Assembly: GCF_018873765.1 (NCBI RefSeq)
Contig: NC_057926.1
Location: 37,308,946-37,372,945, forward strand
Direction of reading: 5' to 3'
DNA: 64,000 nucleotides
DNA from: Telopea speciosissima
Lineage: Eukaryota; Streptophyta; Magnoliopsida; Proteales; Proteaceae
Part shown: positions 5,801-35,585 of the stretch, piece by piece
How the letters are laid out: each line of letters opens with the position of its first letter
How positions within the stretch are numbered: the first letter of the stretch is position 1
Notes under the pieces: model-generated
Seen by the model: only the letters and a program-made list of their open reading frames with translations
Databases searched by the model: none
Told to the model about the DNA's origin: nothing
Translations under genes and position numbers: made by a program

Positions 5801-8271
5801 GCTGAACCTGGTAATGTCTCAGGTTATTCTCTGGGCTCATCCCATGAATTGAAGAACCAAGTGGCTACAAATCGTTTAAAAAGTATTAAGCGGAGGATAA
5901 AACATGCAATCAGAGGTAGTGGAAAGGAACGTCACCGGATATCCATGGATGTCATCTTTCATAGAATCCCTTATGGCCGTAAGCATTCCAAGACTGGGAA
6001 GAAGGGGATGTCTGATCACTGGAAGGAGCTCACAACAGACAGTGATTATAAGGACAGCCCTATTTGTGCTCTTGGCAAGGGTGGACTCCGTCCCCTGAGA
6101 AGAACAGCCTCTCTTAGAGAATCACTGGATAGATACTCTCGATTGTTCGACTCTACTTTCAGCAAAGAAGCTAAGCAACATCTATCTTGCAGATTAAAGC
6201 TGACAAATGAAGATGCGGGATCCCCTGGTGGACCTGCCCCGAAAGCCTTGGGCAGGATTCTATCTCTACCCGAACTCAAGTCTTTTTGTTCTCTGCAAAG
6301 TGAGGTGTCTCATGATACTTCTTGTTTGGGGATGCCAAGTGGCACTCATATGGACAACCCTGCTAATATGGAAAGGTCCAGTCAAAAGCTTGCTGTTCTT
6401 TCTGTAGGTACAGAAAATGACAACGAGTCAGAGGCTTCTGCATTGAGTATCAGTCTAATTCAGGAAAGGTCACAGAGAAAAGCTTGCTGTTCTTCCTGTA
6501 GGTACAGAAAATGACAGCGAGTCAGAGGCTTCTGCATTGAGTATCAGTCTAATTCAGGAAAAGTCCAGTCAAAAGCTTGCTGTTCTTCCTATAGGTACAG
6601 AAAATGACAGCGAGTCAGAGGCTTCTGCAGAAAATGCAAGTCAAGAAATCTTGGTGGAAGTGAGTGAAAGTAGTCTAATTCAGGAGGATCAGGTGGAACT
6701 GATACTCAATGCAGATGAGGATAAATCAATTGATGATTTGGACAACCAGACAATGCTGGAGAATATATCTATTTCTCACTATCTACAGGAAGTTGAGCCT
6801 GCGCCAGATGTTTGTATTAAACAGGCACTACTAAGTCCAAACTCTGTTCTAGACTCTGACACTTCAGAATTTATCATCACAGAAGGTAACTTCCTTATGC
6901 CAATTATTTTCTTCCCCAGACACTAAAGCATTACTTCACACACTCTAATCATAATCCTAATTTTTTTAAAGTGTTTATTAACATAAGGCAAAAGTTTTAT
7001 GCACGGTCGGCATTAAATGACCACAACACCCCTTCCCCCTATTTGACGAATCGATGCACAGAATCTCCCGTGCACAAATCATTTCCCCCTTGACATAGTA
7101 TAGGCCCTTCTAAAAATATGGACTTTTTTTTTTAAAATATATATCCTACCGTTATCCTTCATCTACAGGGGAGAATTATCTTCTCTGGTAATGGCTCCTT
7201 TGAAATGGAAAACACAACCTTGTTATGAAGACTTAGTAAGATAGTGTACGGTGTACCTGACATGATATTTGTCAATTTGTCTATTAACTATTTTGTTTTG
7301 TAAGGGGAAAACAAAGGTCAAACTACTTCTATTTGATAACTAAAACATGTGAATATCAGTACTGATCTCAATGGCCTTGCACAAGACTGAGCTGTTGGCT
7401 TTCAACAACTAATATCACTATCTGTGGAATAAATATCGACAGAACTGATAGGTAGAAATATAATGGTTTGATGAAATTTAAGTTCTTGAGACTGCAAACT
7501 GTTTTTATAAAAAACTTTCGTGTGCACAGATATTTTGAAAGAAAACATTTTGGTGGCAGTATTTTTGATTTAATTAGATTATGTTTTCTGAAATGAATAT
7601 TGATGCTAATTGTGGCTATTCCATTTAAAACAGAAGCAGATTACGGGTTGAAACCCAGGCCTATTGATTTCAATGAGCTGGATTCTCCATATGCGAATAG
7701 GAGCACGATGGAGATTGAGAATGTGAAAAGTCTGAGCAAGCATTTTGATAGTGGCCTTCCCCATGTCCAGGTGGATAAAAAGGATGAATCCAACTTCAAT
7801 TATGTGAGGGAAGTGCTCAAGCTATCAGGCTTCAGTGGGAATGGGAACCTCGGTACAAGGCATTTACCAGACCAGCCAGTTGACCCTTCATTGTTTGAAG
7901 AAGTAGACTGTTCTGGACAGGAAACTGGCAGCAGTTTTGATCACCGGCTTTTGTTCGATGTAATTGGTGATACCTTAATAGATATCTATGAGAGATCATT
8001 CATGTACTGGCCAAGACCCTTGTCCATCAACTTGAACATCCGCCCAATGCCCGTGGGGTGCCATGTTCTTAAGGAGGTATGGACCAGTATTAGTTGGTTT
8101 CTAAGTTATCAACCCGAGATTGGTCAATCATTGGATTACATTGTGGCTCGTGATCTTGCTAAGGCTGATGGGTGGATGAACCTCCAGTTTGAAAGTGAGT
8201 GTGTTGGACTTGAACTTGAGGAGTGGATATGGGATGATCTTCTGGATGAACTTATCTTGAGCTTGAGGTGA
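2862..8271 (+). pseudogene. TRM/DUF4378 family gene (TON1-recruiting-motif type), four exons with frame breaks
   Basis: Exons read as 2862-3021, 4672-4757, 4946-6885 and 7634-8271, all with GT-AG borders and compatible phases. The product starts MGKQLHCKSSSL, has a GCMSGVFNILDFHQW segment typical of the family N terminus, then a HIKTLIAEEMSKE block, and FEDPN-free low-complexity middle regions. The last exon is a DUF4378-type C terminus: HRLLFDVIGDTLIDIYERSF, RPMPVGCHVLKEVW, RDLAKADGWMNLQFE, CVGLELEEWIWDDLLDEL. Relatives bind TON1 and phosphatase subunits and organise cortical microtubules; many are named TRM13-15-like. Three single-base-scale frame changes are visible: about 5206 (VVQASW where VVA.SKL is expected), about 5385 before YMDAKDLIREALF, and about 6470 inside a tandem repeat. 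The gene is either a young pseudogene or intact with assembly indels. Everything else, including the stop, is well preserved. Confidence 0.7.
6375..6630 (+). repeat. 93-bp coding tandem repeat inside TRM-like exon 3
   Basis: Two full units (6375-6467, 6468-6561) and a partial third (6562-6630) encode SSQKLAVLPIGTENDSESEA followed by SALSISLIQE. Unit 1 is 93 bp, a multiple of three. Unit 2 is 94 bp and shifts the reading frame, so the downstream exon is only readable in another frame. Confidence 0.85.
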
Positions 8272-8272
8272 C

Positions 8273-8430
8273 CTGAAGTACTCTATCTTAGGGTGCTTTC
8301 TTCTTTGTTTTCACTCATACATGAAGTTTTGTCTTCTTATTTATTGTCTAACTGAAGTACTCTATCTTAGGGTGCTTTCTTCTTTGTTTTCACTCATACA
8401 TGAAGTTTTGTCTTCTTATTTATTGTCTAA
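8273..8430 (+). repeat. Perfect 79-bp tandem duplication in the TRM-like 3' UTR
   Basis: Units 8273-8351 and 8352-8430 appear identical base for base, beginning CTGAAGTACTCTATC and ending TATTGTCTAA. The duplication starts one base after the stop codon. Identity this high means a very recent event or an assembly error. Confidence 0.9.
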
Positions 8431-10829
8431 CTAATAGGGTTTCTTTAGTTAAAACCTTGTATAGATATAGTTGAAGATAGGGGGAAAAAAAAAAATTTCT
8501 TGTCAAAATTCAAATACTTTGTACAGTTAATAAACTGTTCTAATTTTTGGATTATTCACTTGAATGCCGCAGACACCCAACCAGTTTTTTCTTTCAAAAA
8601 AGTAAAAGAAAAATATTGCCCAAACTTAATTCCAACATGATCAAATCATATTCACCCATATCATCTCTTTTAACGAGAGAGAGAGAGCGAGAGGGGGAGG
8701 GGGGGGGGGAGGAATCACTTTTAAGATTCAATCAAACCCAGACTTGAAGGTGATAGAATAATTTATGCGGAACATTCATGGAGATTAATGAGCATATAAG
8801 CATAATTATGGAGGTATGAACGACATACCTGAACCCATGGTTATGGAAGCCGAAACCGAATATTTTCTTTATGATCCTTGTAACACACAAAAGTCGGTCT
8901 GGTCTACCCTCTTCCACTTCACTTTAAGTTTTGTTAAGTTAGTCACTTGATGGGTCAGTGGCAACTATTTATAGTGGTGAGGGTAGGGACTAATCCTGCA
9001 TAGAAACTGAGGTTTCCTTCCCATTAAGGAAACAATACTTTAGGTCCACACATAGTAATTGGACTCATACCATTAAGGTAGCTCCTATCAACACAACTAA
9101 ATCGATTTTATTAAAATAAAAGTGGGATTATGTCAACCCACCTTATGAAAATCTTACAGAAGGTGCAAGGATCCTTTTCATTGACTAGAGAGGCCCAGTT
9201 ATAGAAAACAAAGAGGAGATGAGGCGGTGTGGGTCCCACTGTGGGACTTAGGCTCCTCTCCTTGTTTCCTCTCTTGGAACTCTCCAGTATACATGTAATT
9301 ACAAAATGGTATGGTTGGAAATTGGAATTGATGTACATTGGAGGGAGAGAGATTGATGCTCCAAGACATGTTACATGGAGCGATCTTGCTCATTCAATCG
9401 CAGACATAAACTTAGCTTCAAGACACTTCGCGAATGATGGAAGCATTCAATCACAAATGATGAATCAGGTTCCGTGATCCCATCATTACAGCTGCCAAGG
9501 AGGATTGGGCATGCCACCAACTTTTAGTAAGTTAATAGCATGGCTGGACACAAGAGAGCAATAAAATATTTTTCAAAGGAGAAAGAGAGAGGATGACATG
9601 GCTGGGCACCAGTCATTTCTCATGTGTACTTGAAAATTGCGCAGTACAACCCCTCTTGAGAATAACATAATGATAAATAAAGGGGGAAGTTTTTAAAACA
9701 CGGCCATGTAAGCATGCACAGGGACAATCAAAATAAGGTAAGCCAATAGCTTTATTGGTCTGGTTTCGATATGGTTTAGTATATGCAAAAAAATTAGGGA
9801 AAAAAAAACTGATTGAAACTAATAGACCAAATCGACCGTTTGACAACCCTAGTAAGTAGTGACCAAAACCTAGGAGACCAATGCACCAATCAACCATACA
9901 CTGTTCCCTCGAGATGAAGTCCAATCTGATCAATACAAGGTGTACGACCCACCATTGAGTCCAATCCTGGCGCCATTGGTGTGGAATTCAGATTTGGGTC
10001 TCCTTTCAACTTGCCATCTATTGATTTTACTAATGTCATGCCTAGAGGAATGTTTGGTTGGAGCCATTGTCCTATATAAGCAGGAGAATTCAATTTGGTA
10101 CATGTGAAGATAGCTTTGAGCAGTTATCTGCGAACAAAACTCAAATTCGGAATTTCAAGTTCAACACGAGTCCCAACCAGCCTCGAGTTGGATCCCATGT
10201 TTAGCTACCCCACCCGTCGAATCTAGCAAACAAAGACAACAAGCACAACCATCCACATCAAAGATGTTGAGGAGGATTGACCCTCTAACGACCGCCAAAT
10301 CTACATTAACCAATACTGTTTCCGTCGTCGATGATTGGATCGTTGACATCCAACGATAGGTGAAGCCCTCGTAAATCTCCATCTCAGTTGTATTGAAAGT
10401 GGTCTGCAATCCCATTCTTTTTTGCTAAAACTGGCCTGGAAACTTCTATTTTGTGCAAACGGATTCGGAGGTTACTTCATTCATCATCATGTTCTTCTTC
10501 TTCTTCTCCCATGCTTCTCTATATTTTCGTTCCCAAAAAACCGCGTGAAACTTGGGAAGAAGCCGTAATACATACTGTTTGTCCAAAATTGGTTTCACCC
10601 ATTTGAAATAGGAGAAGAAGCCCTAATTTGGACAATATAGCCGAAATTGTTTTCACACATTTTCTGATGTTGGTTTGATGAGTCAAAATTTCTCCTTTTC
10701 CTCCCTAATCTGCGAAGCACTTATTGTCGAAAGATGTAAGTATCTTCTTGGCTTTTGTAATGTTTTGGTAATTTCAATGATACTAGAGCTCTGTAACACC
10801 ATTGATTTTCTTTTTCTGTTCTGGAACCT
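8431..10829. other. Gene-poor stretch; GA-rich tract and possible old LTR-like scrap
   Basis: I see no supported gene. A GA/G-rich tract lies at about 8660-8712. The stretch 8750-9170 (ACATACCTGAACCCATGG, a CTATTTATAGTGG box, a short CCCATTAAGGAAA-type repeat) has the look of an old LTR remnant, but no second copy, coding region or target duplication supports it. Open frames on the minus strand at 9613-10415 match no family I know. Confidence 0.35.
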
Positions 10830-10950
10830 GTTATGGAACAGGTTTACCAAACAATCACTTGGAGGCAAAGAATCCACTTTCAGACAAAACAAGAAAAGAT
10901 GATCTTGCAAAAGAACAGCGTTCTCAGAACAAGAACGTTGCCAAACGCAG
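10830..10950. mobile_element. Terminal fragment of a Harbinger-related element abutting copy A
   Basis: The segment ends in AACGTTGCCAAACGCA, the reverse complement of a TGCGTTTGGCAACGTT terminus. It includes AGAACAGCGTTCTCAGAAC, the same subterminal GAACG motif found in the long Harbinger copies. It sits two bases from the head of copy A, in inverted orientation to it. Its far end is unclear; ACAGGTTTACCAAACAA at 10839-10855 may be another terminus. Confidence 0.5.
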
Positions 10951-11579
10951 AGTGCGTTTGGTAAATGGCTGAACAGCGTTCAGAACAGGTTTTTGTTCTT
11001 TAAGAACAAAAAAAGGTGAAATTGCGTTTGGCTTGACGATTCATATTTTTATTCTTTAAGAACGAACCAGAAGAATCTTTGAGGTAAAGAACGTTCTTTA
11101 CAGACCGTCTTGGAGACGGTCTGCAAAGAACAAAGAACGAAAGGTTCGCGATTGACGATCAAAATCGTGAGCAACCCTCGAAGACAACCAAAAACGCAGA
11201 AAACCCAAATCTGGGGAAAGGAAGAAAGAGGAGGAGGCGAACCAGCAAAAGGGTGATCTCCTGTCTCTCTCTCACTCTCTATCCCTATCTCTCTTGCTTC
11301 CTCTCTCTGCTCTCTCTACCTTTCACACTCTCCTTGTCCCGTTCTCTCCCTGTCTTGTTCTCTCTCTCTCTCGGTCATTTGTTGGGATGGATATCTAACT
11401 TTGCTGGTTTCTCCTTTGTCTCAGGATTTGGAGTAACATCCCACGCATTTGAAGGCTTCTTCTACAGTGGACCTCTCTAGCACGACCTTCTCTGCAACTG
11501 AAAATCACAACAACGAAGGTGACTCTCTCTCTCTCGCTCCCTCTCTCTGTAATTAGGTCTCTGTTCTTCTTTTTTCTCT

Positions 11580-11978
11580 GTGATTGCTGGCCCATTTTTT
11601 CTTGAAATTTGTAAAGTTTATCAGAAGTTCTTCTCCATATTTTTATTTTATGGAGATTTTCTACTGGCCGATTGTTGTGAGATATTCATCTTTGTCAACA
11701 GATCTGGTTACCGAACTTCTTCTCCACATTTTTATTTTATTTTTGATATGTATTTCTTCTCCATTTCCGTTCTGTGTACATATCCATCTATTGTTTTCAT
11801 ACCTAGAGATCCATTGCTCTTGGAGACAATAGCCCTGTTGGTTGCTGGGTTAGTTTGGGCTCTTATTATTCTGCCAAAGAGAAACATGAAGATTGATGGC
11901 TTGTTGGGAGCAGGGCTTTTAGCAATATACTTGTTATCTATTTCTTTGAGAGTTATCCAATCCATTGGATCTACCTAG
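11580..11978 (+). CDS. Conserved 132-codon open frame in the leader of Harbinger copy A
   Basis: The frame is open in both long Harbinger copies (partner 20831-21229) with about ten amino-acid differences, no indel and the same stop. Its C-terminal half (PLLLETIALLVAGLVWALII, KRNMKIDGLLGAGLLAIYLL, SLRVIQSIGST) predicts two membrane helices. The only start at the upstream edge is TTG; internal ATGs are at KRNM and FDMYF. It may be an exon of a spliced leader transcript or a captured host fragment. I do not recognise a family. Confidence 0.35.
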   Translation: MIAGPFFLEICKVYQKFFSIFLFYGDFLLADCCEIFIFVNRSGYRTSSPHFYFIFDMYFFSISVLCTYPSIVFIPRDPLLLETIALLVAGLVWALIILPKRNMKIDGLLGAGLLAIYLLSISLRVIQSIGST

Positions 11979-12829
11979 TTTCATCATTTTGTACAGTTAA
12001 CCATACGATATGTGAAATCAATGGATCAATTGTAGTTGATAGCCTAGGATTGAGAACAATGTGATGATTGACAATGAGATCTACTTCTGGTTTCTCTGTC
12101 TTCAAATCAGTTTTTTTTCCCCCTGTAGAAAGATGGGTTTGGCTACTCTATTACCTTTGCTTGATTGATGCTCATCCAGGGCTGTTGTATCTTATTTTCT
12201 TGCTCATCCAGGGCTGTAGAGGTAAATTAAAAAAATAGTTTAAGGAAATATTTAGCTGTTAAATATAGTGTAAGTTACAGTAAGAATTGTAAAGAGCCGC
12301 TGTACATGGTGCTGAATGATTGTGGTCCATACCATTCTTGAAGAATCTATATCTTCTTACTTTTTCTTTTCTTTTTCCTTTTGTTCCCTTTAGCTCTATA
12401 ACCATGGTGCTAAATGATAACTTGTCTTAATCGTATGTTTTATTATGTATTGATTTATCTAGTCATTTCAATGATTTTTTTTGAGTCCATGAGTTCTTAT
12501 TGAGTAAATAGGAGGGATTTAGGTGTTGGTGTGAGAAAACTCCACTGTCCATACTTCAATTATGGAAATCTTGCTTGTTAACTTTCTCATGCAAAGATTC
12601 ACTTCATTGCAACTCTCTTGATTATTTCTGTTTTAGACCTTTGGTCATTGCATTCCTCATGTAGAGATTCATGCTACTTTAATTTTTTTGTTATATTTCT
12701 GTTTTGCTTTCATACATCCCTTCCTTTGTTAGTCAACCTTGAGGTTGGTAATGGATCAGTAGAGCCTTGTGCATAGCATGTGTATGTCATCTTCTTTTTA
12801 ATATTGTTTGTTACCTATATTCAGATTTT

Positions 12830-13844
12830 ATGGCTACTGCATCAAAATTAAAAGGAAAAGCAAAAGTAGGGCCTGTCTCTTGGTCCAACAATGAGACTGC
12901 CATACTAGTTAGGTTCATGGTAGAGAATGTAAGGTCTGGCAATAAGTGTAGGACAACCTTTAATAAGAATGGGTGGGATGACATTCATACTCGGTTAGAA
13001 GCCACGCTTGGTAGGACTTTTGATAGGGAACAGATAAGGAACAAGTTCAACAAGCTGAGGATAGAGTACGAAAGTTTTAAATCATTGCTGCAAATGACGG
13101 GCTTTGGATGGAACTCAGTTACCAACACAGTTACCTTTGATGATGATAGCATTTGGGATAGAACTATAGCGGTAAATACTATATACTACTATTTTTCCTT
13201 GGTTGAATATAGACTATTATATTTGTATCGTATAATTTTAATATTTTATTTTATATCATATATAGGTCAATCCTGCATAGAAAAAATTTAGGCATCAAGG
13301 TTTGTCACATTGGCATGATCTCCAAATTATATTTGGAGATTCTTATGCCCGTGGGGATGGTGGAGTAGATCACACGCAAGACTGGGTGACAACTGGACTT
13401 GAAGATCTAGAAATTGAGGAAGAAATTACTTCACCACTCCACAACACTCCAACAAATGTAGATACTTTGAGAGACGATGAGGTTGAGGAAAGGATCCATA
13501 CTTCAACCCATAACCAAGATAGGACTCCAACAGCAAAACGAAGGCGCAGTGTCAGCAACAGTCTCTCAGGTGCTTTAGGATATGTGGGAAAGTTGTGTCA
13601 AATGAAGATAGAAAAGGCAACTGCAAGTACTGAAGCTATTTCTGCAGTTTCAGGCTTTGGCACATCAGCTTCCATCGACACTAGTATATTGGCATGCACA
13701 CATGTCCTTGACGAAATTCCTGATATAGGCAAGGACATGTATCTGAAGGCCTCAAAGCAAATTAGGGAGTCAACTGCGTGGAGGGAGTCATTCATTGGTT
13801 AAAGGCCCGATAGGAGGATGTGGCTGTTGGAAGAGTTAGAATAG
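12830..13844 (+). pseudogene. Harbinger ORF1 (Myb/SANT-like DNA-binding protein), copy A
   Basis: Exons 12830-13171 and 13266-13844 are separated by a short AT-rich GT-AG intron. The product starts MATASKLKGKAKVG and has a Myb/SANT-like trihelix fold typical of PIF/Harbinger ORF1: VSWSNNETAILVRFMVENV, GWDDIHTRLEATLGRTF, EQIRNKFNKLRIEYESFKS. The C-terminal half is acidic with a TAKRRRSVS basic patch. ORF1 proteins bind the terminal repeats and bring the transposase into the nucleus. Compared with copy B there are two in-frame stops, one at the start of exon 2 where copy B has AWKKFR, and one after ESFIG. The gene is therefore dead in this copy. Confidence 0.8.
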
Positions 13845-14099
13845 TGTGGTATTTTGATTGAACTTGAAACAATTATGTTTATTTGAATTTGTGGCTGTTA
13901 TGATGCTAGAACTTAGATGTTATTTGAGTCTGTTTGGTTTAATTTGGGTGGCATGTTGTTAGAACTTGAAACAATTATTTCTATGATTTCTGTTTGGAAC
14001 AATTTGTTACTACAATATATAAGTTTGTGATATTATATTATGTTTATGGTAGAAGCTGTTATTTAAAGTTTTTTATACTGTTGTGCAGTTGTAGTAGTT

Positions 14100-15506
14100 A
14101 TGGAACAAATATACCAATTCAGTTATGATTCATCAAGTGATGAGGATGATTTGATTATCATATCCACAATTTTAATTACGGCACAATCTTTATACACTAG
14201 AGAACCCTGTAGGGATGGTAAACATCCAGGATCCATAAAGGTCCATGAGGTTTTGATTGGTCATGCAAATCGCTGCTATGAAGAGTAATGTATGGAAAGA
14301 CGTGTTTCAAAATCTATGTACACTGATGATACACTAAAACTGGTTGAAAGACACTTGGTATTTAATGGTGGATGAACAAGTAGCCATGTTTATGCTGATA
14401 GTGGGTAAGGGTTTTTCTAATAGAAAAATTCAAGAGGATTTTCAATATTCTAGGGAGACCATTAGCCGTACATTCAAGAGAGTGTTAAGAGCTATGGGAA
14501 AATTGGCAAAAGAAAGGATCAGACCACCAGATGTCAAAAAAATTGAGCAGGATATGCGTGCAAAACCTAAGTGCTATCATTTTTTTAAGGTAATATGCAA
14601 TAAATACAAAAATTATAAATCAATTATTTATATTTATAGTATTCAAGTATGACAAGTTTTGGTGATTCTTCTCATTGTTTTTAGGATTGTATTGGAGCAA
14701 TTGATGGTAGTCATATTAGTGCCATAGTCCCAAAGGAAAACGCTACTCGTTATAAAAACCGCAAGGGCATTATCACAAAGAACGTGATGTGTATATGTGA
14801 TTTTGATATGCGATTCACGAATGTTTATGCGGATTGGGAAGACAGCGCTAATGATTGTCGTATATTTGAACAAGAAAGGAGGGATCTCGCGTTAGAGTTC
14901 CCACACCCGCCTAAAGGTAAAACCCATTGAATCGTACTGATAAAATAAATCAGTTCGTATGAAATATTTCAATTGCTAACTTGGGTTTTTCTTTACAATG
15001 GTTTATATGTAGGAAAATATTATGTTGTGGACTCTGGGTATGCAAATCAACTTGGATACCTAACTTCATTCCGTGGTGAGAAGTACCATATTTTCGACTA
15101 CCAGGGAGCTGGGAGAATCCCAAAGACCACTAAAGAGTTGTTCAACTACACACATTCCTCACTTAAGAATGTAATTGAGTGTACATTTGGGGTTTTGAAA
15201 AATAGATTCAAAATATTAAGAAATATGCCAGCTTATGCAGTCAAACTCCAGACCTACATTGTGATTGCATGTTGTGGATTGCATAATTATATCCGTGATG
15301 AACAAAGGGCAGACGCTGAATTTACTGCCTTAAGTGAGGATGACATAGTAGTCATAGATCGATTAAATCTTGACCCCGAGCCGTATGAAGGATCTATGCC
15401 TACTCTCAGTCAGAGAGACAGTGCAAGAATCATGAGTAATGTGCGGATACACATTGCACGTCATTTGGCCAAAAGTTGTAGGATGACAGAAACCGAATTT
15501 ACATGA
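14100..15506 (+). pseudogene. PIF/Harbinger DDE transposase, copy A
   Basis: Exons 14100-14589, 14685-14916 and 15013-15506. The N-terminal helix-turn-helix region is recognisable (MLIVGKGFSNRKIQEDFQYS, RTFKRVLRAMG). The DDE_Tnp_4 catalytic core follows: first Asp in CIGAIDGSHI, second Asp in the DWEDSANDCRIF segment, Glu in NVIECTFGVLKNRFKIL, and the family hallmark VDSGYANQLGYL. These enzymes excise and integrate the element and are the ancestors of plant ALP1. An in-frame stop after CYEE and a frame change near 14285-14345 break the N-terminal exon, so the protein is not made as one chain. The catalytic triad itself is preserved. Confidence 0.85.
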
Positions 15507-15712
15507 GTTTCTTTATGTGTTTGTGACCAAACTATGGAACTGTTTATGTAACTTATATTGAATTTGGTATGACAAACTTTTAGACGTTGATGGGTTATAT
15601 GCAGAATATTTTATTTTGAATCTGTTGTTATGATGTTAAATATAACTGTCCTATTATCTGACAATTTGCATCAAGTCATTGCAATTTAAGAACATTCATA
15701 TTCAATATCCAG

Positions 15713-16174
15713 ATGTCTACTAATGTGAATTTACATTCTGTCGCAAAATACGCGAAATGTGGAAGAGAATGCATGATATGGACATCTAGTTCTAAAAATA
15801 ATAGAGGAAGAGATTATTTTCGATGTCCTATAGGATGTTCATTTTTTCTTTGAGTGAATCAATTGAAATGGTGTCCATGTGCACAAGGACAATGTAAAGT
15901 TAGGACAGCGAAAACAGAAAAAAATTGTGATCGCTCATTTTGGTGCTGTCCAAATTCAACTGGGGTATGATCACCATGCAACCATTTTATTTTGTTTATT
16001 TTACATTATTTACCATTAATTTACATAATTATATATGATACTCATAACATATATGAATTTACAGAATGATAATCGTGGCTGTGGGTATTTCAAATGGATA
16101 GAAGAAGATATGACCTCATCATCTAGTCAACAAACTAATGTCTCAAGGGTTTGTCCTTCAGGGTCAACAGCTGT
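15713..16174 (+). pseudogene. GRF-type zinc-finger gene of Harbinger copy A, truncated
   Basis: Exon 1 (15713-15965) reads MSTNVNLHSV, CGRECMIWTSSSKNN, GRDYFRCPIGCSFF, the pattern of a GRF zinc finger. A second GRF-like motif begins NCDRSFWCCPNST and continues across an intron into exon 2 (from 16065) as NDNRGCGYFKWIEED. An in-frame stop replaces the Trp of the copy B sequence FLWVNQ. The last part of the gene is missing because the element is deleted between this point and its right terminus. Confidence 0.65.
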
Positions 16175-16487
16175 ATCGGTTAGAACGGCGTTCTGAGATA
16201 AAAAATGACTATTTGGTAACGGTTTCAAGAACGCCGTTCAGAACAGAAATCGTGTTTGGTAAAACCTGTTATGAACGGTGTTTGATATTAATTACAATAA
16301 TGTCATCCATAGAAGGAAATAAAATAAAATGTATCTTACATAACAAACTTAAATTAAAAATATCTTATAAAAACATATTAAAATAATTTTAAATATAAAA
16401 TCCATAACCAACCTTACCATAAATTAAAATATAGTATGTTATAGTTAATTAAAACAATTATTACAACTTTAACACTTAAAACTTGTA

Positions 16488-17085
16488 TTAATCTTCTTCT
16501 TTCTTCAGGTTTAGCTTAGTAAGACCTTCAAGGATGTCTTTGAACGTCTTGGCTTGATTTTCTGTCGATGTAATTGCACTCTTGCAATAACCTTTCAGAA
16601 ATTTCGATGAAGACGTAACCCATACAGCTATTGACCCTAAGGGATAAACCCTTGAGACATTAGTTTGTTGACTAGATGATGAAGTCGTATCTTCTTCTAT
16701 CCATTTGAAATACCCACAGCCTCGATTATCATTCTGTAAATTCATATATGTTATGAGTATTATATATAATTATGTAAATTAATGATAAATAATGTAAAAT
16801 AAACGAAATAAAATGGTTGCATGGTGATCGTACCCCAGTTGAATTTGGACAACACCAAAATGAGCGACCACAATTTTTTTTTGTTTTCGCTGTCCTAACT
16901 TTACATTGTCCTTGTGCACATGGACACCATTTCAATTGATTCACCCAGAGAAAAAATGAACATCCTATGGGACATCGAAAATAATCTCTTCCTTTATTAT
17001 TTTCAGAACTAGATGTCCATATCATGCATTCTCTTTCACATTTTTCGTATTTTACGACAAAATATAAATTCACATTAGTAGACAT
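16488..17085 (-). CDS. GRF-type zinc-finger protein encoded by Harbinger copy B
   Basis: Exons 16834-17085 and 16488-16733 (GT-AG intron) give a 165-residue protein with no stop. It begins MSTNVNLYFVVKYEKC. The first GRF-type finger runs ECMIWTSSSENN, GRDYFRCPIGCSFFLWVNQ. A second Cys-rich unit, CPCAQGQCKVRT..KKNCGRSFWCCP, crosses the intron and ends GCGYFKWIEED. The tail (KAITSTENQ-like, ILEGLTKLNLKKEED) is charged and helical. GRF fingers bind nucleic acid in topoisomerase III, APE2 and NEIL3 and are common in plant mobile elements. The gene lies just downstream of the transposase on the same strand in both Harbinger copies, so it is part of the element. Standard PIF/Harbinger elements are described with only ORF1 and transposase. 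Confidence 0.65.
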
Positions 17086-17291
17086 CTGCACATTGAATAT
17101 GAATGTTCTTAAATTGCAATGACTTGATGCAAATTGTCAGTTAATAGGACAGTTATATTAAACATCATAACAACAGATTCAAAATAAAATATTCTGCATA
17201 TAACCCATCAACGTCTATAAGTTTGTCATACCAAATTCAACATAAGTTATATAAACAGTTTCATAGTTTGATCACAAACACATAAAGAAAC

Positions 17292-18701
17292 TCATGTAAG
17301 TCCGATTTCTGTCATCCTACAACTTCTGACCAAATGACGTGCAATGTGTATCCGCACATTATTCATGATTCTTGCACTGTCTCTCTGACTGAGAGTAGGC
17401 ATAGATCCTTCATACGGCTCGGGGTCAGAATTTAATGGATCTATGACTACTGTGTCGTCCTCACTTAAGGCAGTAAATTCAGCATCCGTCATGTGTTCAT
17501 CACGGATATAATTATGCATTCCACAACATGCAATCACAATGTAGGTTTGGAGTTTGACTGCATAAGCTGACATATTTCTTAATATTTTGAATATATTTTT
17601 CAAAACCCCATATGTACGCTCAATTACATTCCTAAGTGAGGAATGTCTGTAGTTGAACTACTCTTTAGCAGTCTTTGGGGTTCTCTCAGCTCCCTGGTAG
17701 TTGGAAATATGGTACTTCTCACCACGGAATGGAATTAGGTATCCAAGTTGATTTGCATACCCAGAGTCCATAACATAATATTTTTCTACATACAAACCAT
17801 TGTAAAGAAAAACCCAAGTTAGCAATTGAAATATTTCATACGAACTGATTTATTTTATCAGTACGATTCAATGGGTTTTACCTTCAGGCGGGTGTGGGAA
17901 CTCTAACGCGGGATCCCTCCTTGTTTGTTCAAATATACGACAATCATTAATGTTGCCTTCCCAACCCGCATAAACGTACGTGAATCGCATATCAAAATCA
18001 CATATACACATCACGTTTTGTGTGATAATGCCCTTGCGATTTCTATAACGAGTAGCGTCTTCCTTTGGGACTATGGCACTAATATGACTACCATCAATTG
18101 CTCCAATACAATCCTAAAAACAATGAGAAGAATCACCAAAACTTATCATACTTGAATACTATAATATAAATAATTGATTTGCAATTTTTGTATTATTGCA
18201 TATTACCTTAAAGAAAGGATAGTACTTAGGTTTTGCACGCATATCATGCTCAATTTTTTTGACATCTGGTGGTCTGATCCTTTCTTTTGCCAATTTTTCC
18301 ATCGCTCTTAACACTCTCTTGAATGTACGGATAATGGTCTCCCCAGAATGTTGAAAATTCTCTTGAATTTTTCGATTAGATAAACCCTTACCCACTATCA
18401 GCATAAACATAATTACTTGTTCATCCACCCTTAAATATTGAGTGTCTTTCAATCACTTTCGGTGTACCATCAGTGTACATAGATTCTGAAACACATGTCT
18501 TTCCATGTAGTACTCTTCATAGCAGCGATTTGCATGACCAGTCAGAACCTCATGGACCTTTATGGATCCTGGATATCTACCATCCCTATAAGGTTCTCTA
18601 GTGTATAAAGATTGTGCCGCAATTAAAATTGTGGATATGATAATCAAATCATCATCATCACTTGATGAATCATAACTGAATTGGTGTATTTGTTCTATAG
18701 C
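17292..18701 (-). pseudogene. PIF/Harbinger DDE transposase, copy B
   Basis: Exons on the minus strand are 18207-18701, 17882-18113 and 17292-17785. The order of motifs matches copy A: MLIVGKGLSNRKIQENFQHS, CIGAIDGSHI (first Asp), NINDCRIFEQ (second Asp), VDSGYANQLGYL, NVIERTYGVLKN (Glu) and the RDSARIMNNVRIHIARHL tail. The expected start codon reads ATA. One in-frame stop lies between HRK and LKDTQYL, and another is in KE.FNYRHS where copy A has Leu. The enzyme is therefore inactive, though the acidic triad remains. Confidence 0.85.
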
Positions 18702-18953
18702 TGCTACAACAGCATAACAATATAAAAAACTTTAAATAACAGATTCTACCATAAACATAATATAATATCACAAACTTACATATTGTAGCAACAAATTGTT
18801 CCAAACAGAAATTCATAGAAATAAAGCACAAGTTCTAACAACATACCACCCAAATTAAACCAAACAGACTCAAATAACATATAAGTTCTAGCATCATAAC
18901 AACCACAAATTCAAAATAAATATAATTGTTTTAAGTTCAATCAAAACACCACA

Positions 18954-19968
18954 CTATTTTAACTCCTCCAACAGCCACATCCTCCTATCGGGCCTACAAC
19001 CAATGAATGATTCCCTCCACGCAGCTGACTCCCTAATTTGCTTTGAGGCCTTCAGATACATGTCATTGCCTATATTAGGAATTTCGTCAAGGACACGTGT
19101 GCATGCCAATATACTAGTATCGATGGAAGCTGATGTGCCAAAGCCTGAAATTGCAGAAATGGCTTCAGTACTTGCAGCTGCCTTTTCTATCTTCATTTGA
19201 CACAACTTTCCCACATATCCCAAAGCATCTGAGAGATTGTTGCTGACACTGCGCCTTCGTTTCACTGTTGGAGTCCTATCTTGGTTATGGGTTGAAGTAT
19301 GGATCCTTTCCTCAACCTCACCGTCTTTCAAAGTATCTACATTTGTTGGAGTGTTGTGGAGTGGTGTAGTAATTTTCTCCTCAACCTCTAGATCTTCAAG
19401 TCCAGTAGTCATCCAGTCTTGCGTGTGATCTACTCCACCATCTCCACGGGCATAAGAATCTTCAAATATAATTTGGAGATCATGCCAATGTGACAAGCCT
19501 TGATGCCTAAACTTTTTCCATGCAGGATTGACCTATATACGATATAAAATAAAATATTAGAATTATACGATACAAATATAATAGTCTATATTCAACCAAG
19601 AAAAAATAGTAGTATATAGTATTTACCGCTATAGCTTTATCCCAAATGTTGTCATCATCAACGGTAACTGTGTTGGTAACTGAGTTCCATCCAAAGCCCG
19701 TCATTTGAAGCAATGATTTAAAACTTTCGTACTCTATCCTCAGCTTGTTGAACTTGTTCCTTATCTGTTCCCTATCAAAAATCCTATCAAGCGTGGCTTC
19801 TAACCGAGTATGAATGTCATCCCATCCATTTCTATTAAAGGTTGCCACACTCTTGTTGCCAGACCTTACATTCTCTACCATGAACCTAACTAGTATGGCA
19901 GTCTCATTGTTGGACCAAGAGATAGACCCTACTTTTGCTTTTCCTTTTGATTTTGATGCAGTAGCCAT
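18954..19968 (-). CDS. Harbinger ORF1 (Myb/SANT-like), copy B, open reading frame
   Basis: Exons 19627-19968 and 18954-19532 join to 306 codons plus stop with no break. The N-terminal Myb/SANT-like domain has SISWSNNETAILVRFMVENV, GWDDIHTRLEATLDR and EQIRNKFNKLRIEYESFK. The second exon opens VNPAWKKFRHQGLSHWHDL, acidic and Ser/Thr-rich sequence follows, then KRRRSVSNN and a helical C terminus ending LLEELK. The start was chosen because MATAS follows an in-frame intron-like leader and is conserved in copy A. As the element's DNA-binding accessory protein it could still be translated, but with no working transposase here it could act only in trans. Confidence 0.75.
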
Positions 19969-20830
19969 AAAATCTGAATATAGATAACAAACAATATTAA
20001 AAAGAAGATGACATACACATGCTTTATACAAAGCTCTACTGATCCATTACCAACATCAAGTCTGACTAACAAAGGAAGGGATGTATGAAAGCAAAACAGA
20101 AATATAACAAAAAAATTAAAGTAGCATGAATCTCTACATAAGGAATGCAATGACCAAAGCTCTAAAACATAAATAAATCAAGAGAGTTGCAATGAAATGA
20201 ATCTTTGCATGAGAAAGTTAACAAGCAAGATTTCCATAATTGAAGTATGGACAGTGGAGTTTTCTCACACCAACATCTAAAGCCCTCCTATTTACTCAAT
20301 AAGAACTCATGGACTCAAAAAGAATCATTGAAATGACTAGATATATCAATATATAATAAAACATACGACTGAGACAAGTTATCATTCAGCACCATGGTTA
20401 TAGAGCTAAAGGGAACAAAAGGAAAAAGAAAAGAAAAAGTAAGAAGATATAGATTCTTCAAGAATGGTATGGCCCACAATCATTCAGCACCATGTACAGC
20501 GGCTCTTTGCAATTCTTATTGTAACTTACACTATATTTAACAGCTAAATATTTTCTTAAACTATTTTTTAATTTACCTCTTAGAAAAGGCTACCTGCTGA
20601 ACAAGAAAATAAAATACTACAGCCCAGCCCTGGATGAGCATCAATCAAGCAAAGGTAATAGAGCAGTCAAACCCATCTTTCTGCAGGGGAAAAAAAAACT
20701 GATTTGAAGACAGAGAAACCAGAAGTAGAACTCATTGTCAATCATCACATTGTTCACAATCCTAGGCTATTAACTACAATTGATCCATTGATTTCACATA
20801 TCGTATGGTTAACTGTACAAAATGATGAAA

Positions 20831-21229
20831 CTAGGTAGATCCAATGGATTGGATAACTCTCAAAGAAATAGATAACAAGTATATGGCTAAAAGCCCTGCT
20901 CCCAACAAGCCATCAATCTTCATGTTTCTCTTTGACAGAATAATAAGAGCCCAAACTAACCCAGCAACCAACAGGGCTATTGTCTCCAAGAGTAATGGAT
21001 CTTTAGGTATGAAAACAATAGATGGATATGTACACAGAACGGAAATGGAGAAGAAATACATATAAAAAATAAAATAAAAATATGGAGAAGAAGTTCGGTA
21101 ACCAGATCTGTTGACAGAGATGAAAATCTCACAACAATCGGCTAGTAGAAAATCTCTATAAAATAAAAATATGGAGAAGAACTTCTGATAAGCTTTACAA
21201 ATTTCAGGAAAAAATGGGCCAGCAATCAC
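20831..21229 (-). CDS. Conserved 132-codon open frame in the leader of Harbinger copy B
   Basis: Partner of the frame at 11580-11978, in the same place relative to the Harbinger terminus and with the same length and stop. Two predicted membrane helices (IALLVAGLVWALIIL, LLGAGLLAIYLLSISL) are unchanged. No ATG opens the conserved frame, so it may be a spliced exon or noncoding leader conserved by shared ancestry only. Confidence 0.35.
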   Translation of the reverse strand: MIAGPFFPEICKAYQKFFSIFLFYRDFLLADCCEIFISVNRSGYRTSSPYFYFIFYMYFFSISVLCTYPSIVFIPKDPLLLETIALLVAGLVWALIILSKRNMKIDGLLGAGLLAIYLLSISLRVIQSIGST

Positions 21230-21852
21230 AGAGAAAAACGAAGAACAGAGACCTAATTACAGAGAGAGGGAGCGAGAGAGAGAGAGTCACCTTCATTGTT
21301 GTGATTTTCAGTTGCAGAGAAGGTTGTGCTAGAGAGGTCCACTGTAGAAGAAACCTTCAAATGCGTGGGATGTTACTCCAAATCCTGCGACAAAGGAGAA
21401 ACCAGCAAAGTTAGATATCCATCCCAACAAACGACCGAGAGAGAGAGAGAACGAGACAGGGAGAGAACGAGACAGGTAGAGAGAGCAGAGAGAGAAAGTG
21501 AGAGAGATAGGGATAGAGAGCAAGAGAGAGATAGGAGATCACCCTTTTGCTGGTTCGCCTCCTCCTCTTTCTTCCTTTCCCTAGATTTGGGTTTTCTGTG
21601 TTTTTGATTGTCTTCGAGGGTTGCTCACGATTTTGATCGTCAATCGCGAGCCTTTCGTTCTTTGTTCTTTGCAGACCGTCTCTAAGACGGTTTGTAAAGA
21701 ACGTTCTTTACCTCAAAGATTCTTCCGATTCGTTCTTAAAGAACAAAAAAACGAACCGTCAAACCAAACGCAATTTCACGTTTTTTTGTTCTTAAAGAAC
21801 GAAAAACGTGCTCTGAACGCTGTTAAAACATTTACCAAACGCACTCCTAAAC

Positions 21853-22110
21853 TACGTTTGGTAAATGTCTGAACAGTGTTCAGCACTATTTTTGCGTTCT
21901 TTAAGAAGAAAAAAAGGTGAATTTGTGTTTGACTTGACGGTTCCTTTTTTGGTTCTTTAAGAACGAACAAAGAACGTTCTTTACAGACCGTCTCCGAGCA
22001 AAACCCGTGAAAAACAGTCCTGGGTTTTTAGAAAGTCTTGCGAAGAGGAGGGGAAGAGAAGGGGAAACGAAGGGGAAGAGAAGGATTCACAGCCACTTGA
22101 GACGCCAAAT
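21853..22110 (+). mobile_element. Terminal part of a third Harbinger-related element abutting copy B
   Basis: TACGTTTGGTAAATGTCTG, AACAGTGTTCAGCAC, GTGTTTGACTTGACGG and TTTAAGAACGAACAAAGAAC repeat the terminal and subterminal order of copies A and B in plus orientation, starting eight bases from the head of copy B. A CT-rich leader follows, as in the long copies. I see no related transposase after it and no right terminus, so this is a fragment or a diverged deletion derivative. Confidence 0.55.
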
Positions 22111-23394
22111 TGCAGGTGTGAAGCCCTCTATCTCTCTCTCGCTCTCTCTTCTTTTCTCTCTGTCGCTTCCTCTCTGTCTCTCTATCTCGCTATCTCTCTG
22201 TCTCTCTCTGTCTCGCTCTCTCTCCCTCTCTCACTCTCTATCTCGTTATTGAATACAGAAATTTACACAGAAGAAAATAGCCATTTCTGATTTCTGCCTT
22301 CCGGGTCGGGCCCTTTCCGAGTTCTGGAGTCTGCACTGCACCCTTTCTCATGCTAATGTCTTTCTTCAACGTTTCTTCGATGAATTTACACTGCTCGACA
22401 AGGCGAATTCCAAGCTGAATACTGTAAGACCTAAAATTCATGATTTCCTGGGTGTTATTGAGTAGATATGTTTACTTTCTACATTTTTATTCTTAGTTTT
22501 ATAAAATTTCGACCCTTATTTTTTAATCAAATGCACGACAAAAAATTTAACTTGTTTTACCACAAATTTCTTATTCTGCAACAGATGATTAGGGTTTCGT
22601 TTTTAATCAGACGTTTTACTCTGTTGATATACCGTACTGTGCATTCAACCCTTGAGAAGTACGGAACTATTATGCTTCTTCTTTATTGGTATCTTTCTAA
22701 CAATTTTGATCATATTATGTGTTTACGCTGAATTCAAGTCGATTCTCCTATATTAGATGAGAATGCAGATTTCAGAGAGCAAATGTTGGAAATATTGTGA
22801 TATATGTTTGCTTCCCCTCCCCCTCTACCCCTGTTGAGCGTTGGAAATATCTGAGTTCTGGTTTCTATCCCTCCACACGTCAATGGTTTGTATGCTCTTC
22901 GAATACTAGCATGCTGCTTTATTAAAGTGGATCGCTACATAATAATAGGTTCTGATTATGTGGTTAAGTTTTTGCCTATATATGTTCTTTGTGCATGGGT
23001 ATTGCCGGGGAAACCAAATGTTTTTTCTAGTCTGGTAGTTTGGGCTCGCTTAAACTCCAGTCAAGTAGCCAGAATTCCTTTAAGTTTGCCTCTACTTATT
23101 ATTAATATGCTATCATGAGGCAAAGGAGGTAGCACTCAGTGCATTTTAACAAGCTTTTTGGGTAAGCTGTCTGAAATGATACATTATCAGGAGACAAAAG
23201 AAGAGGGCATGCGAAGATTATATCGTAACAAGCTTATTAATGGATGCTCTGATTCAAGCCGATTTGAATTGGAATCCTCTCTGACCGGTTTTGTTTCCGA
23301 TTCCAAGTTTTAAAACCCTGACCGGAGGGGAAAGCCTTCAAAGTTGAAACACACAGCCGTCGCTACGGCCACTAGAGTAATCTCTGCCTCAAAA
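22111..23394. other. CT-rich leader and unassigned sequence upstream of the OBGM relic
   Basis: A CT microsatellite (about 22121-22250) is followed by AT-rich sequence with several unlinked open frames and no recognisable domain. The last 100 bases probably belong to the promoter and leader of the OBGM relic. Confidence 0.35.
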
Positions 23395-25852
23395 ATGTGA
23401 TTGCGACGTATAACAGTGGTTCCCTACTTCGGAGCCTGGAGGAGATCGCCCAGGTCTCAGTGTCTTCTCACTTCCGTCTATTCATACTCAGACGCTCCTT
23501 GCAAAAAGCTGAAGCTTGCTTCTTTACAGGTATCTTTCAAGCCTGGGTTTTTTTTTTTTTATCTAAATAAAAAATGTCTTCTCCACCACAATCTTCCACT
23601 TCTTCTTTGTTACCACATTTTTTTCATACGAGCTTTTATGTTATTGAAATGTAATTGAATATGTTCTTTGGTTTGTTTTACTTACCTTTCCATCCTGGGT
23701 TCTTTTGTGATTTTTCTGCAGGAGAGGAGAATGATTGATAAGTTCAGGCTGTGGGCTAAAGGAGGCCATGCCGGCAACGGGTGTTCCAGCTTTCGCCGCA
23801 GCTGATGTGATTGCCGGGGCAAACCCGATGGTGGCTTAGCTCTCTGTTTAATTTCCGTGTTCTCCTCCCCACCCCTCTCCCCCATTCTGTTTCTGGGTCA
23901 AGATTTATGTTGGAATTACTTAATTTTTTGTTTTTCTCTCCTCCGAATTACTTAATTTCTCCTTACCCCCAAAAAAAAAAAAAACAAAAAGAAGAAAGAG
24001 TTAACTACTGGAATTTGGGTGTTTGTTTTATTGAGTTTTATAATTGTTTCGTCATTAGTAATGATTTTCTTTTTCTTTTTCTTCAATTTGGGAATTAATG
24101 TAGGTGGGAATGGTGGAAGAGGTGGTGATGTGATTCTAGAATGTTCAGCCGCAGTCTGGGACTTCAGGAATCTGCAGCATCACTTGGTACCACACTCCCT
24201 TCCATTCAGTTCAGTCTTCTCCTTCATTCATGACTGACCATCATGAGTGATTGAAGCATGAATCCAATTCGTTATCTTCTTACTAGCTCATTGTGTTAAA
24301 CATTCACCATTATTAGTAACATATGGAATGTGTCGCAGAATGCAAAGAAAGGGGGGCATGGAGCCTCAAAGAATAAGATAGGAAGCTGAGGGGCAGACAA
24401 GGTTCTGATTTATAAGCTATTCTGTTATCCTTGTGAGGTCCCTTTATGTTATTATTTTCTTGTTAGCAATCATATGGTGGGAGAATACTGAAACTCGCTA
24501 ATAACATGATTTCATATGGTAGGTTGTGCAAGTACCTGTTGGCACTACAATTCATCTTCTTGAGGGTGAATTTCCATCTTTTATTGCGAAGTCTTCCTCA
24601 ACAGCTTTGGATCCTTGGGAGATCCCGGGTGAACTTGAGGGTAATGGGGGTAGTCTGTCTACATCCAATCGACAGAACACAATTTTGGATCCATGGGATA
24701 TCCCAGGTGAATTTGAGGGTAATGAGGATAGTTTGTCTACATCCAATCGACAGAACACAATTATCCCCAGTACAACGGAGGTATTGGAAAGAAAGGACTT
24801 TGATGTCTCATCTTCATGCATTGAAAGTTTCAACAACAAATCACCTAGCACCCTGCACGGAGTCCAGGGTTCATCAGATGGATTTCATGCTCGGTCTTCT
24901 CCATTCAGCAAACAATACAAAGCAGGTATTGATGAATCTGTCTCCCACTCTGAAGAAGGTGAGAGTGAGGATGAAGATGTAGAAATTGGTGACAGTATGT
25001 CGGGGGAATAATGGGAAGAGGATGAGGAAGAAGAAGTGGAAATTGTACAATATAATGTTGCTGAATTAAAAGAACCAGGTCAGCAAGTTGTCATTGCTCA
25101 GGGAGGAGAGGGTGGTCTTGGTAATGTCTCTTCTGCAAAGGTCTTTATGGCCCATAAACACATGAAGCATGGTAACCATAAGGATGGAGCCCCTGAACTT
25201 GAGTTATCAGAAGATGAAGATCAATCCTCGCCTAGTGTTGGTTCACCTGGTTCAGAAGCTGTCCTAATATTAGAACTAAAGAGTATAGCTGATGTGGGCC
25301 TAGTTGGGATGCCAAATGCTGGTAAAAGTACTCTTCTAGGGGCCATTTCAAGGGCTAAGCCTGCTGTGGGCCATTATGCCTTAACAACCTTGAGGCAAAA
25401 TATAGGAAATCTGAACTATGATGACTTCTCAATCACTGTGGCTGACATTCCAGGACTCATAAAGGGGGCACATGAGAATCGTGGACTTGGGCATGCATTT
25501 CTCCGGCCCATAGAATGAACAAAGGTGCTAGCCTTTGTGGTAGATTTGGCAGCAGGACTAGATGGAAGAAAGGGTATTCCGCCATGGGAACAGCTGAGAG
25601 ATCTGGTATTGGAGCTTGAATACCATCAAGAAGGTTTGACAGATAGACCCTCCTTAGTGGTAGCAAATAAGATTGATGAGGAGGGTACTGAGGATGTCTT
25701 TGAAGAATTAAAGAGCAGGGTTCAAGGTGTTACAATTTTTCCTATCTGTGCAGTGCTGGAGGAGGGATACCAGAGTTAAAGCTGGCCTTCGAATGCTCAT
25801 GGATGGGGTAGAGTCACAAAGGGTTGAATTAAATAGAATTATGCTTGACTAA
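23395..25852 (+). pseudogene. Decayed mitochondrial Obg-family GTPase gene (OBGM)
   Basis: Five exons with intact GT-AG borders: 23395-23529, 23722-23830, 24104-24186, 24339-24401 and 24523-25852. The product follows plant OBGM, a mitochondrial ribosome-assembly GTPase. The glycine-rich Obg fold reads DKFRLWAKGGHAGNGCSS, GGNGGRGGDVILEC and VPVGTTIHLLEGE. An acidic linker follows, then the GTPase core: GMPNAGKST (G1, about 25308), [17 protein letters not shown] (G3), VANKIDEEG (G4) and FPICAVLEEG (G5). It cannot be expressed as one chain. Codon 2 (Trp in relatives) is TGA, and further in-frame stops lie after FRRS, KNKIGS, SMSGE and RPIE, with one or two frame changes after VLEEG. Several stops are CGA-to-TGA or TGG-to-TGA, fitting methylated-CpG decay. 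Introns are kept, so this is a duplicated rather than a processed pseudogene. Confidence 0.88.
24607..24762 (+). repeat. 78-bp coding duplication in the OBGM linker
   Basis: Two consecutive units (24607-24684, 24685-24762) encode LDPWEIPGELEGNGGSLSTS and LDPWDIPGEFEGNEDSLSTS, each followed by NRQNTI. The unit is 26 codons, so the frame is kept. Arabidopsis OBGM has a single LDPWDLPG motif at this place. Confidence 0.85.
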
Positions 25853-34742: not shown

Positions 34743-35585
34743 CCATATATGGAGGGAATGCAACAGAAGGAGGTTCGAAAACTTGAACAGAACAGCGTCC
34801 CAAATAGTAAGGATCTGCCTCATGGAAGCAAAGGAATGCACCCATCACATACAAGTCCGAGTGAAGACGGTAAACGAGCTCATGTTAGCAAGGCAGTTTC
34901 AATTAGCCATCAAGGCGCCGCCCACACAGAGAATACTGGAAGTGAGATGGAAAATGCCGCCACTAGAATGGTCGAAACTCAACACTGACGGGTCTTCACT
35001 GGGTAATCCGGGGCACTCGGGCGCTGGTGGGGTTATCAGGAATCAGTATGGTGCTGCCATAAGATGCTTTGCATCTTATGAGGGAGTAGGAACAAATTAT
35101 GAGGCGGAAATTGCAGCCTTCTTCGCAGGTATCAAGGAAGCAAGGGAGCTGCAGATTGGAAAATTATGGATCGAGTCGGATTCTGCAGCCGTGGTTAGCT
35201 CGGTTCTTACTGGAAGGATGCCATGGAGTTTTTTACAGCTATGGTGGTCGGTGGTTGATTACCTTGCTACAATTCAGTGGCGGATCATACACTGCTATTG
35301 GGAAGGTAACTCAGCTGCGGACGCACTAGCAAGCCATGCAGCGAAAACAAAAACAACGACAAGGTGGAATAGTACACCCTAGATCATAGCTAGAGTGATA
35401 GGCTGGGAGGCAATGAATCGCCCACATTACAGATTCGCTTAGGCGTCTTGGTTAGAGGACTTGGAGCTTTACTTGTAAGGATGAGAAGGGCATGCCACAG
35501 CTAGGCATCTATACAGTTGAATTGTAATTCTGTACCATCTGTTAATTTTATTATAATACATACGTTGCTGACTTTTAGCAAAGAA
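34743..35585 (+). mobile_element. 3' end of an L1-type LINE inserted in the RTE element
   Basis: A perfect 43-bp direct repeat (34700-34742 and 35586-35628) that is RTE sequence flanks it, so this is the target duplication. The insert encodes only an RNase H-like domain of the RVT_3 type: WSKLNTDGSSLGNPGHSGAG, GTNYEAEIAAFFAGIKEA, WIESDSAAVVSSVL and the terminal HCYWEGNSAADALASHAAK. This fragment keeps a long open frame (to 35382), but it is the tail of a 5'-truncated retroelement, not a host RNase H gene. Confidence 0.85.

Follow-up and report, generated by a model that had tools for sequence, protein, structure and literature searches.

A giant inverted repeat formed by stacked PIF/Harbinger transposons in Telopea speciosissima

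We analyzed a 64,000-nucleotide stretch of Telopea speciosissima DNA (C11:37308946-37372945, hereafter the window) and searched the assembly that contains it (822.9 Mb in 1287 contigs). The window holds a stack of PIF/Harbinger transposons, a kind of transposon cluster already known from multimers of Harbinger elements and miniature inverted-repeat transposable elements (MITEs), with a geometry like that of Mu killer. Its core consists of two long copies in opposite orientation, copy 1 (5.2 kb) and copy 2 (5.7 kb), both with gene remnants (Table 1). Comparison of the window with itself paired arms at 10950-16182 and 16616-21846 with 93.97% identity (5253 columns, 42 gap positions), which far exceeds chance, in an inverted repeat with a total span of 10,897 bp and 433 nt between the arms. 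An earlier sequence-only reading had proposed such a giant inverted repeat, and the alignment confirms it.

Table 1. Features of the transposon stack and of two neighbouring ORFs (window coordinates; ORF, open reading frame).
Feature	Position	Strand	Remarks
DUF3741 ORF	5342-6514	+	Points toward the inverted repeat
DUF4378 ORF	7600-8271	+	Points toward the inverted repeat
Element 0, older related element: right end (tail, ~155 bp)	10795..10949	+	From comparison with C1 and C3 loci
Left outer join	10941..10961	.	Element 0 tail against copy 1 head terminal repeat, CCAAACG-7 nt-CGTTTGG
Copy 1, PIF/Harbinger element	10950..16182	+	Head present; ~507 bp lacking at the right end by comparison with L041
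Copy 1 ORF1-type Myb/SANT domain	12827..13138	+	PF12776, E 3.4e-19
Copy 1 transposase remnant, DDE_Tnp_4	14973..15506	+	PF13359, E 2.7e-12
Central join	16180..16182	.	Interior of copy 1 next to the subterminal region of copy 2, with a TTA in common; no right terminal repeat on either side
Copy 2, PIF/Harbinger element, inverted	16180..21846	-	Head present; lacks last 71-75 bp of right end relative to L041
Unpaired, off-centre 433-nt "loop"	16183..16615	-	Right-end part of copy 2; counterpart absent from copy 1
Copy 2 ORF with two GRF zinc-finger stretches	16729..17091	-	Copy 2 coding strand; PF06839, E 3.9e-13
Right outer join	21835..21861	.	Copy 2 head against element 3 head, CCAAACG-CACTCCTAAACTA-CGTTTGG, 13-nt spacer
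Element 3, third related element: head fragment (~397 bp)	21852..22249	+	Head faces that of copy 2

The coding content is that of PIF/Harbinger elements. Copy 1 retains part of an IS5-like DDE transposase, whose homologue in copy 2 is interrupted by an in-frame stop, and the Myb/SANT-like ORF1 that forms the second gene of these elements. The GRF zinc-finger ORF sits near the right end of the element and has a tblastn homologue in copy 1. Among 15 further loci searched with tblastn it was found in all but L027-L029, and in five loci (L017, L018, L021, L039 and L043) it is split over frames or pieces.

The true ends of the element were read from relatives. The transposase stretch (14700-15700) is matched by four other loci at 93-94% and by one at 90%, and these five loci (L039-L043) defined the termini. 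The element at L041 measures 5708 bp and runs from TAA|GAGTGCGTTTGGTAAATG to CATTTACCAAACG plus 5 nt. The terminal sequences are GGCTACGTTTGG/GAGTGCGTTTGG, and the 21-mer that follows the outermost five bases fits L039 and L041 at either end, allowing one mismatch at most (the terminal sequence expected of PIF/Harbinger was taken from passages of PMC2213677). Both ends could be read in four relatives, of which three have matching 3-bp target site duplications of the TTA/TAA type characteristic of the superfamily (L039 TTA/TTA, L042 TAA/TAA, L043 TAA/TAA); L041 has TAA/TAG. Within the window, TAA remains only at the head side of copy 2. About 310 bp separate two facing right ends at L042 (C4:34490700-34498700, around 6800-7110), possibly a tail-to-tail pair with a spacer, and the second element of this pair looks internally deleted.

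The right ends missing from the window can be read off against the same loci. In all five relatives homology to the right end of copy 2 stretches as far as 16180, and the element continues outward from there; its right terminal repeat appears only 71 bp beyond the equivalent of 16180, or 47 bp beyond it in the case of L040. The motif at 16208, taken in the sequence-only reading for the point where the two copies abut through their right termini (16207/16208), is a subterminal repeat that starts 96 bp (72 bp in L040) inside the terminal one; that placement was therefore rejected, and the actual join is the one listed in Table 1. For copy 1, position 16177 corresponds to 6330 of L041 and the element end to 6843, a loss of about 507 bp. 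These are BLAST coordinates, used because a MAFFT alignment, which placed the last base of copy 1 at L041 5708 and was set aside, had aligned the join sequence to the terminus.

With both right terminal repeats gone, the centre has the appearance of a deletion join, with at least about 580 bp lost and a 3-bp TTA overlap. One deletion would explain the right-end losses of both copies, and that it was a single event we infer. The sequence-only reading had also offered repeated insertion at the termini, or recombination at the terminal repeats, as the origin of the chain. Insertion is supported for the two outer joins described below but not for the centre; the central join, with no right terminal repeat present, does not show recombination at such repeats.

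A quite different origin of the centre would be a nested insertion, with copy 2 entering copy 1 at an internal TTA by way of a cryptic inner end (GAACGGCGTTC). A TTA does sit exactly at the join, but at its far side copy 2 has TAA rather than a repeat of TTA, followed by the head of another element. No remainder of copy 1 lies beside the head of copy 2, and comparison of 10000-23500 with the window did not turn up the right end of the element a second time. Lacking both a matching target duplication and the rest of copy 1, nested insertion was rejected as highly improbable.

Around the centre, 41 genomic matches to 16100-16320 were obtained (40 of 583 first-look candidates were scored). The whole 221-bp stretch is matched by the window alone, and 40 of the 41 matches start at 16176 or later and cross 16207/16208. 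A join matched by the window only is also what an assembly artefact would give, either by misjoining of two elements or through a fold-back read chimera. The latter, however, predicts near-identical arms and mirrored flanks, whereas the arms differ by 6%, the flanks are not mirrored and the window contains no N, and we consider an artefact very unlikely.

The outer joins are read directly, with facing terminal-repeat cores in the intervals given in Table 1, in agreement with the earlier claim that related termini abut both outer heads. The left join equals the expected ...GCAG-CCTTAG-AGTG... minus CCTTAG (6 bp). Element 0 has paralogous loci at C1:27027352..27033359 and C3:51123492..51128456, where the sequence that precedes 10795 in the window lies about 5.6 kb and 4.6 kb, respectively, from the element 0 tail, so the window copy looks internally deleted. 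At C1:27.03 Mb the site is unfilled: the same tail reads CCAAACGCAGCC-TTA-GATTCC, and the homologue of window position 23249 starts 17 nt after the TTA. At C3:51.128 Mb it is filled (CCAAACGCAGCC-TTA-GGGCGAGTTTGG), the head of a different subfamily, GGGCGAGTTTGGTAATG, following directly after tail and TTA. Of these three loci, the window and C3, but not C1, thus have the TTA duplication of the element 0 tail occupied. The tails of the window and C3 are 93% alike, whereas the heads after them reach about 76-78% similarity to heads of the family in the window, a contrast that speaks for different insertions at the two sites. Near the element 0 relative at C3:51.12 Mb (L045), segments like window 9260-10795 and 7941-9262 occur in swapped order.

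Element 3 on the right is a head fragment. No terminal repeat for its tail was found in the window within 6 mismatches, besides the three listed repeats and two weak matches. Between the fragment and C1-like DNA lies about 1 kb (22246..23252, + strand) that is 95-98% like C2:15.43 Mb and adjoins the C1-like DNA at about 23249, where the two share a few bases.

Joins of this kind are not confined to the window. Searching for two facing repeats with 5+TWA+5 between them and up to one mismatch, we found 15 sites in the genome in which a terminal inverted repeat (TIR), TWA and a second TIR follow one another (10 without mismatch and 5 with one, including the right join of the window), and none with the reversed pattern as control. 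When facing exact cores were allowed any spacing from 0 to 30, 14 sites were obtained, 11 of them at exactly 13 nt and the others at 8, 10 and 18 (binomial probability for 11 of 14 at one named spacing of 31, 1.3e-14).

The 14 joins outside the window fall in 13 extracted loci. Eight are tail-head, one is tail-tail, one sets a tail against an element 0-like tail and three have one side unassigned; the remaining one, L063, escaped the script pattern and is in no orientation class. The right join of the window is head against head. At L005 there is a further, more diverged tail-to-tail join with a single TTA. Comparing the two sides of 13 joins over about 600 bases each, we found no near-identical long inverted repeat; the longest similarity covered 197 columns at 84.8% (L056). 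Another chain of stacked elements, at L053 (C1:9021090-9025650), has two terminus-to-terminus joins about 3.2 kb apart.

The 15 joins, the 13-nt spacing of 11 of the 14 facing exact cores, the empty site on C1 and the differently filled one on C3 support insertion beside existing termini, both for the two outer joins and elsewhere in the genome.

The target sites of the family point to a possible reason for the stacking. Exact ends of the form TWA-N5-CGTTTGGTAA number 1046 genome-wide, against 88 for the reversed control; a stricter form of 29 bases, in which two mismatches were allowed, gave 463 and 0. C precedes the TWA (position -1) in 606 of the 1046 ends and in 16 of the 88 control ends, and A at -4 is combined with C at -1 in 322 and 3, respectively; these counts include ends that take part in joins. 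As background, 17.7% of the TWA sites in the window have C at -1 and 5.7% have A..C. A sample of 27 "solo" ends was left unused, since two of them (L005 and L063) do abut another terminus. The common terminal repeats (GGCT.., GAGT..) have outer bases G..T and read A..C from outside, so that the edge of the element itself fits the flank that the family prefers beside its TWA target. Because its outer bases resemble that flank, an inserted element would carry attractive sites at its edges. Assuming independent insertions and ignoring regional hotspots, about 0.006 joins are expected with even TWA targeting and 0.083 with the measured flank preference; 10 zero-mismatch joins were observed.

Together, these observations make it probable that the locus arose by stacked insertions into the target duplications of neighbouring elements, followed by a central deletion. 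We infer the following order. The insertion of element 0, an older element, would have produced a TTA duplication beside its right end, into which copy 1 inserted; a later loss of 6 bp would have removed CCTTAG. Copy 2 lies nearby in the opposite orientation. Its head and that of element 3 have a TAA in common, so one of the two presumably inserted into the target duplication of the other. The long copies would thus have stood tail to tail until the deletion, with its TTA overlap, removed the missing part of copy 1, anything between the copies and the outermost 71-75 bp of copy 2. The right terminal repeats of both copies would have gone with it, leaving the inverted repeat with its off-centre loop. 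Likeness of the outer terminal-repeat bases to the preferred TWA flank may have helped the stacking, but it appears too weak alone to account for the number of joins.

Did copy 1 and copy 2 insert separately? Over their aligned length the arms agree at 94.5%, and L041 matches each of them at 94.2% (a badly aligned stretch at columns 1200-2100 lowers the values for L039, 92.3-92.6%, which were given no weight). The two arms lie about as far apart as either lies from copies on other chromosomes. Six arrangements were compared by the AU (approximately unbiased) test, and none is rejected (p 0.059 to 0.69). We favour separate insertions, since the sequences flanking the two arms do not mirror one another and each head abuts a neighbour of its own.

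The alternative is an early local inverted duplication (by fold-back replication, sister-chromatid fusion or transposase-driven alternative transposition) with a later deletion of the centre. It would explain a weak sister signal of the arms and the GAGTG head variant in both copies. That variant, however, also occurs in L041 on C5, each head ends at a terminal repeat beside a different neighbour, and the arms would share only about 0.0028 changes per site before the split, against 0.030-0.035 after it. We regard such a duplication as improbable.

Several observations weigh against stacking by separate insertions as we propose it. The phylogenetic tree is star-like, with the arms as weakly supported sisters (77/79; 80.6/60), a grouping that a further tree does not resolve. 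Of 49 informative four-copy sites, 22 join copy 1 with copy 2, versus 14 and 13 for the other pairings. The bootstrap proportion by resampled log-likelihoods (bp-RELL) and the expected likelihood weight (c-ELW) exclude one arrangement that separates the arms. Copy 1 now has no target duplication at either end; the TAA of the right join (21848-21850) lies one base off the exact centre, hence its single mismatch in the genome-wide count; and the original spacer between the two tails is a free parameter of the model. Four of the eight tail-head joins have an identical 27-nt core, with a fifth one base different, so the joins may not all be independent. The similarities on the two sides of tail-head joins are nevertheless discordant for several pairs (88% and 95% for L053-L061, 96% and 87% for L053-L054), which speaks against one dimer copied many times. 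Finally, joins are about 120-fold more frequent than flank preference predicts, so the mechanism is incomplete; local hopping, shared hotspots or direct recognition of termini may be the missing part. A bolder idea, which we put forward only tentatively, is self-edge targeting: by imitating A..C-TWA, the TIRs would themselves draw copies at this 120-fold rate, and stacks, sometimes as giant inverted repeats capable of forming a silencing hairpin, would be a built-in by-product of amplification.

Jiang and Wessler (2001, Plant Cell 13:2553, a study cited in PMC5907723) are reported to have described MITE/Tourist multimers in which PIF/Harbinger-related elements had inserted beside or in one another, and to have explained them by insertion preference. 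The Telopea locus resembles them in that PIF/Harbinger-related elements adjoin one another, here also beyond chance. It differs in its two 5-kb members, which carry transposase and ORF1 sequence and are not short non-autonomous elements, in joins that are adjacent and not nested, and in a central pair that has lost its join. Passages of PMC2213677 describe PIF/Harbinger elements of Medicago truncatula with TTA/TAA duplications, TIRs with G(N)5GTT, and nested and mosaic elements. Superfamily, duplications, TIRs and composites from repeated insertion are alike, but those passages concern nested insertions and mosaics, whereas here TIR-duplication-TIR stacks and a giant inverted repeat are found. 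The gSaTar/MULE (Mutator-like element) arrays of guayule and rice, as portrayed in parts of PMC5907723, are modular and non-nested and target microsatellites. They share with the present stack a linear run of uninterrupted elements arising from target choice, the target here being the TWA duplication beside an existing terminus.

Mu killer of maize, a Mutator derivative described as a partial inverted duplication of mudrA, has been shown to silence (PMC3440606). Both loci contain inverted, transposase-bearing DNA-transposon sequence with the potential for long hairpin RNA, and in both a flanking gene may read toward it; the Telopea arms differ in being 94% alike and probably separate insertions. 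Because the arms share 1380 of 5210 24-mers exactly, hairpin RNA would be possible if the locus is transcribed. The DUF3741 and DUF4378 ORFs, probably one host gene (5342-8271), stop 2.7 kb before the inverted repeat. Hypothetically, read-through RNA from this side could fold, as proposed for Mu killer (PMC3440606).

Our searches of open-access papers on Tourist multimers, Harbinger target sites, Mu killer, long inverted repeats, palindrome deletions and the species showed no description of this locus. Through its paralogous empty and filled sites, the locus shows full-size DNA transposons stacking at each other's target duplications, and also the fate of the centre of an inverted repeat after stacking. 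If transcribed, it would be a natural candidate for starting family-wide silencing, as Mu killer does in maize. Elsewhere in the window, an RNase H-like ORF at 34783-35382 on the + strand (RVT_3, PF13456) is probably a retrotransposon remnant.

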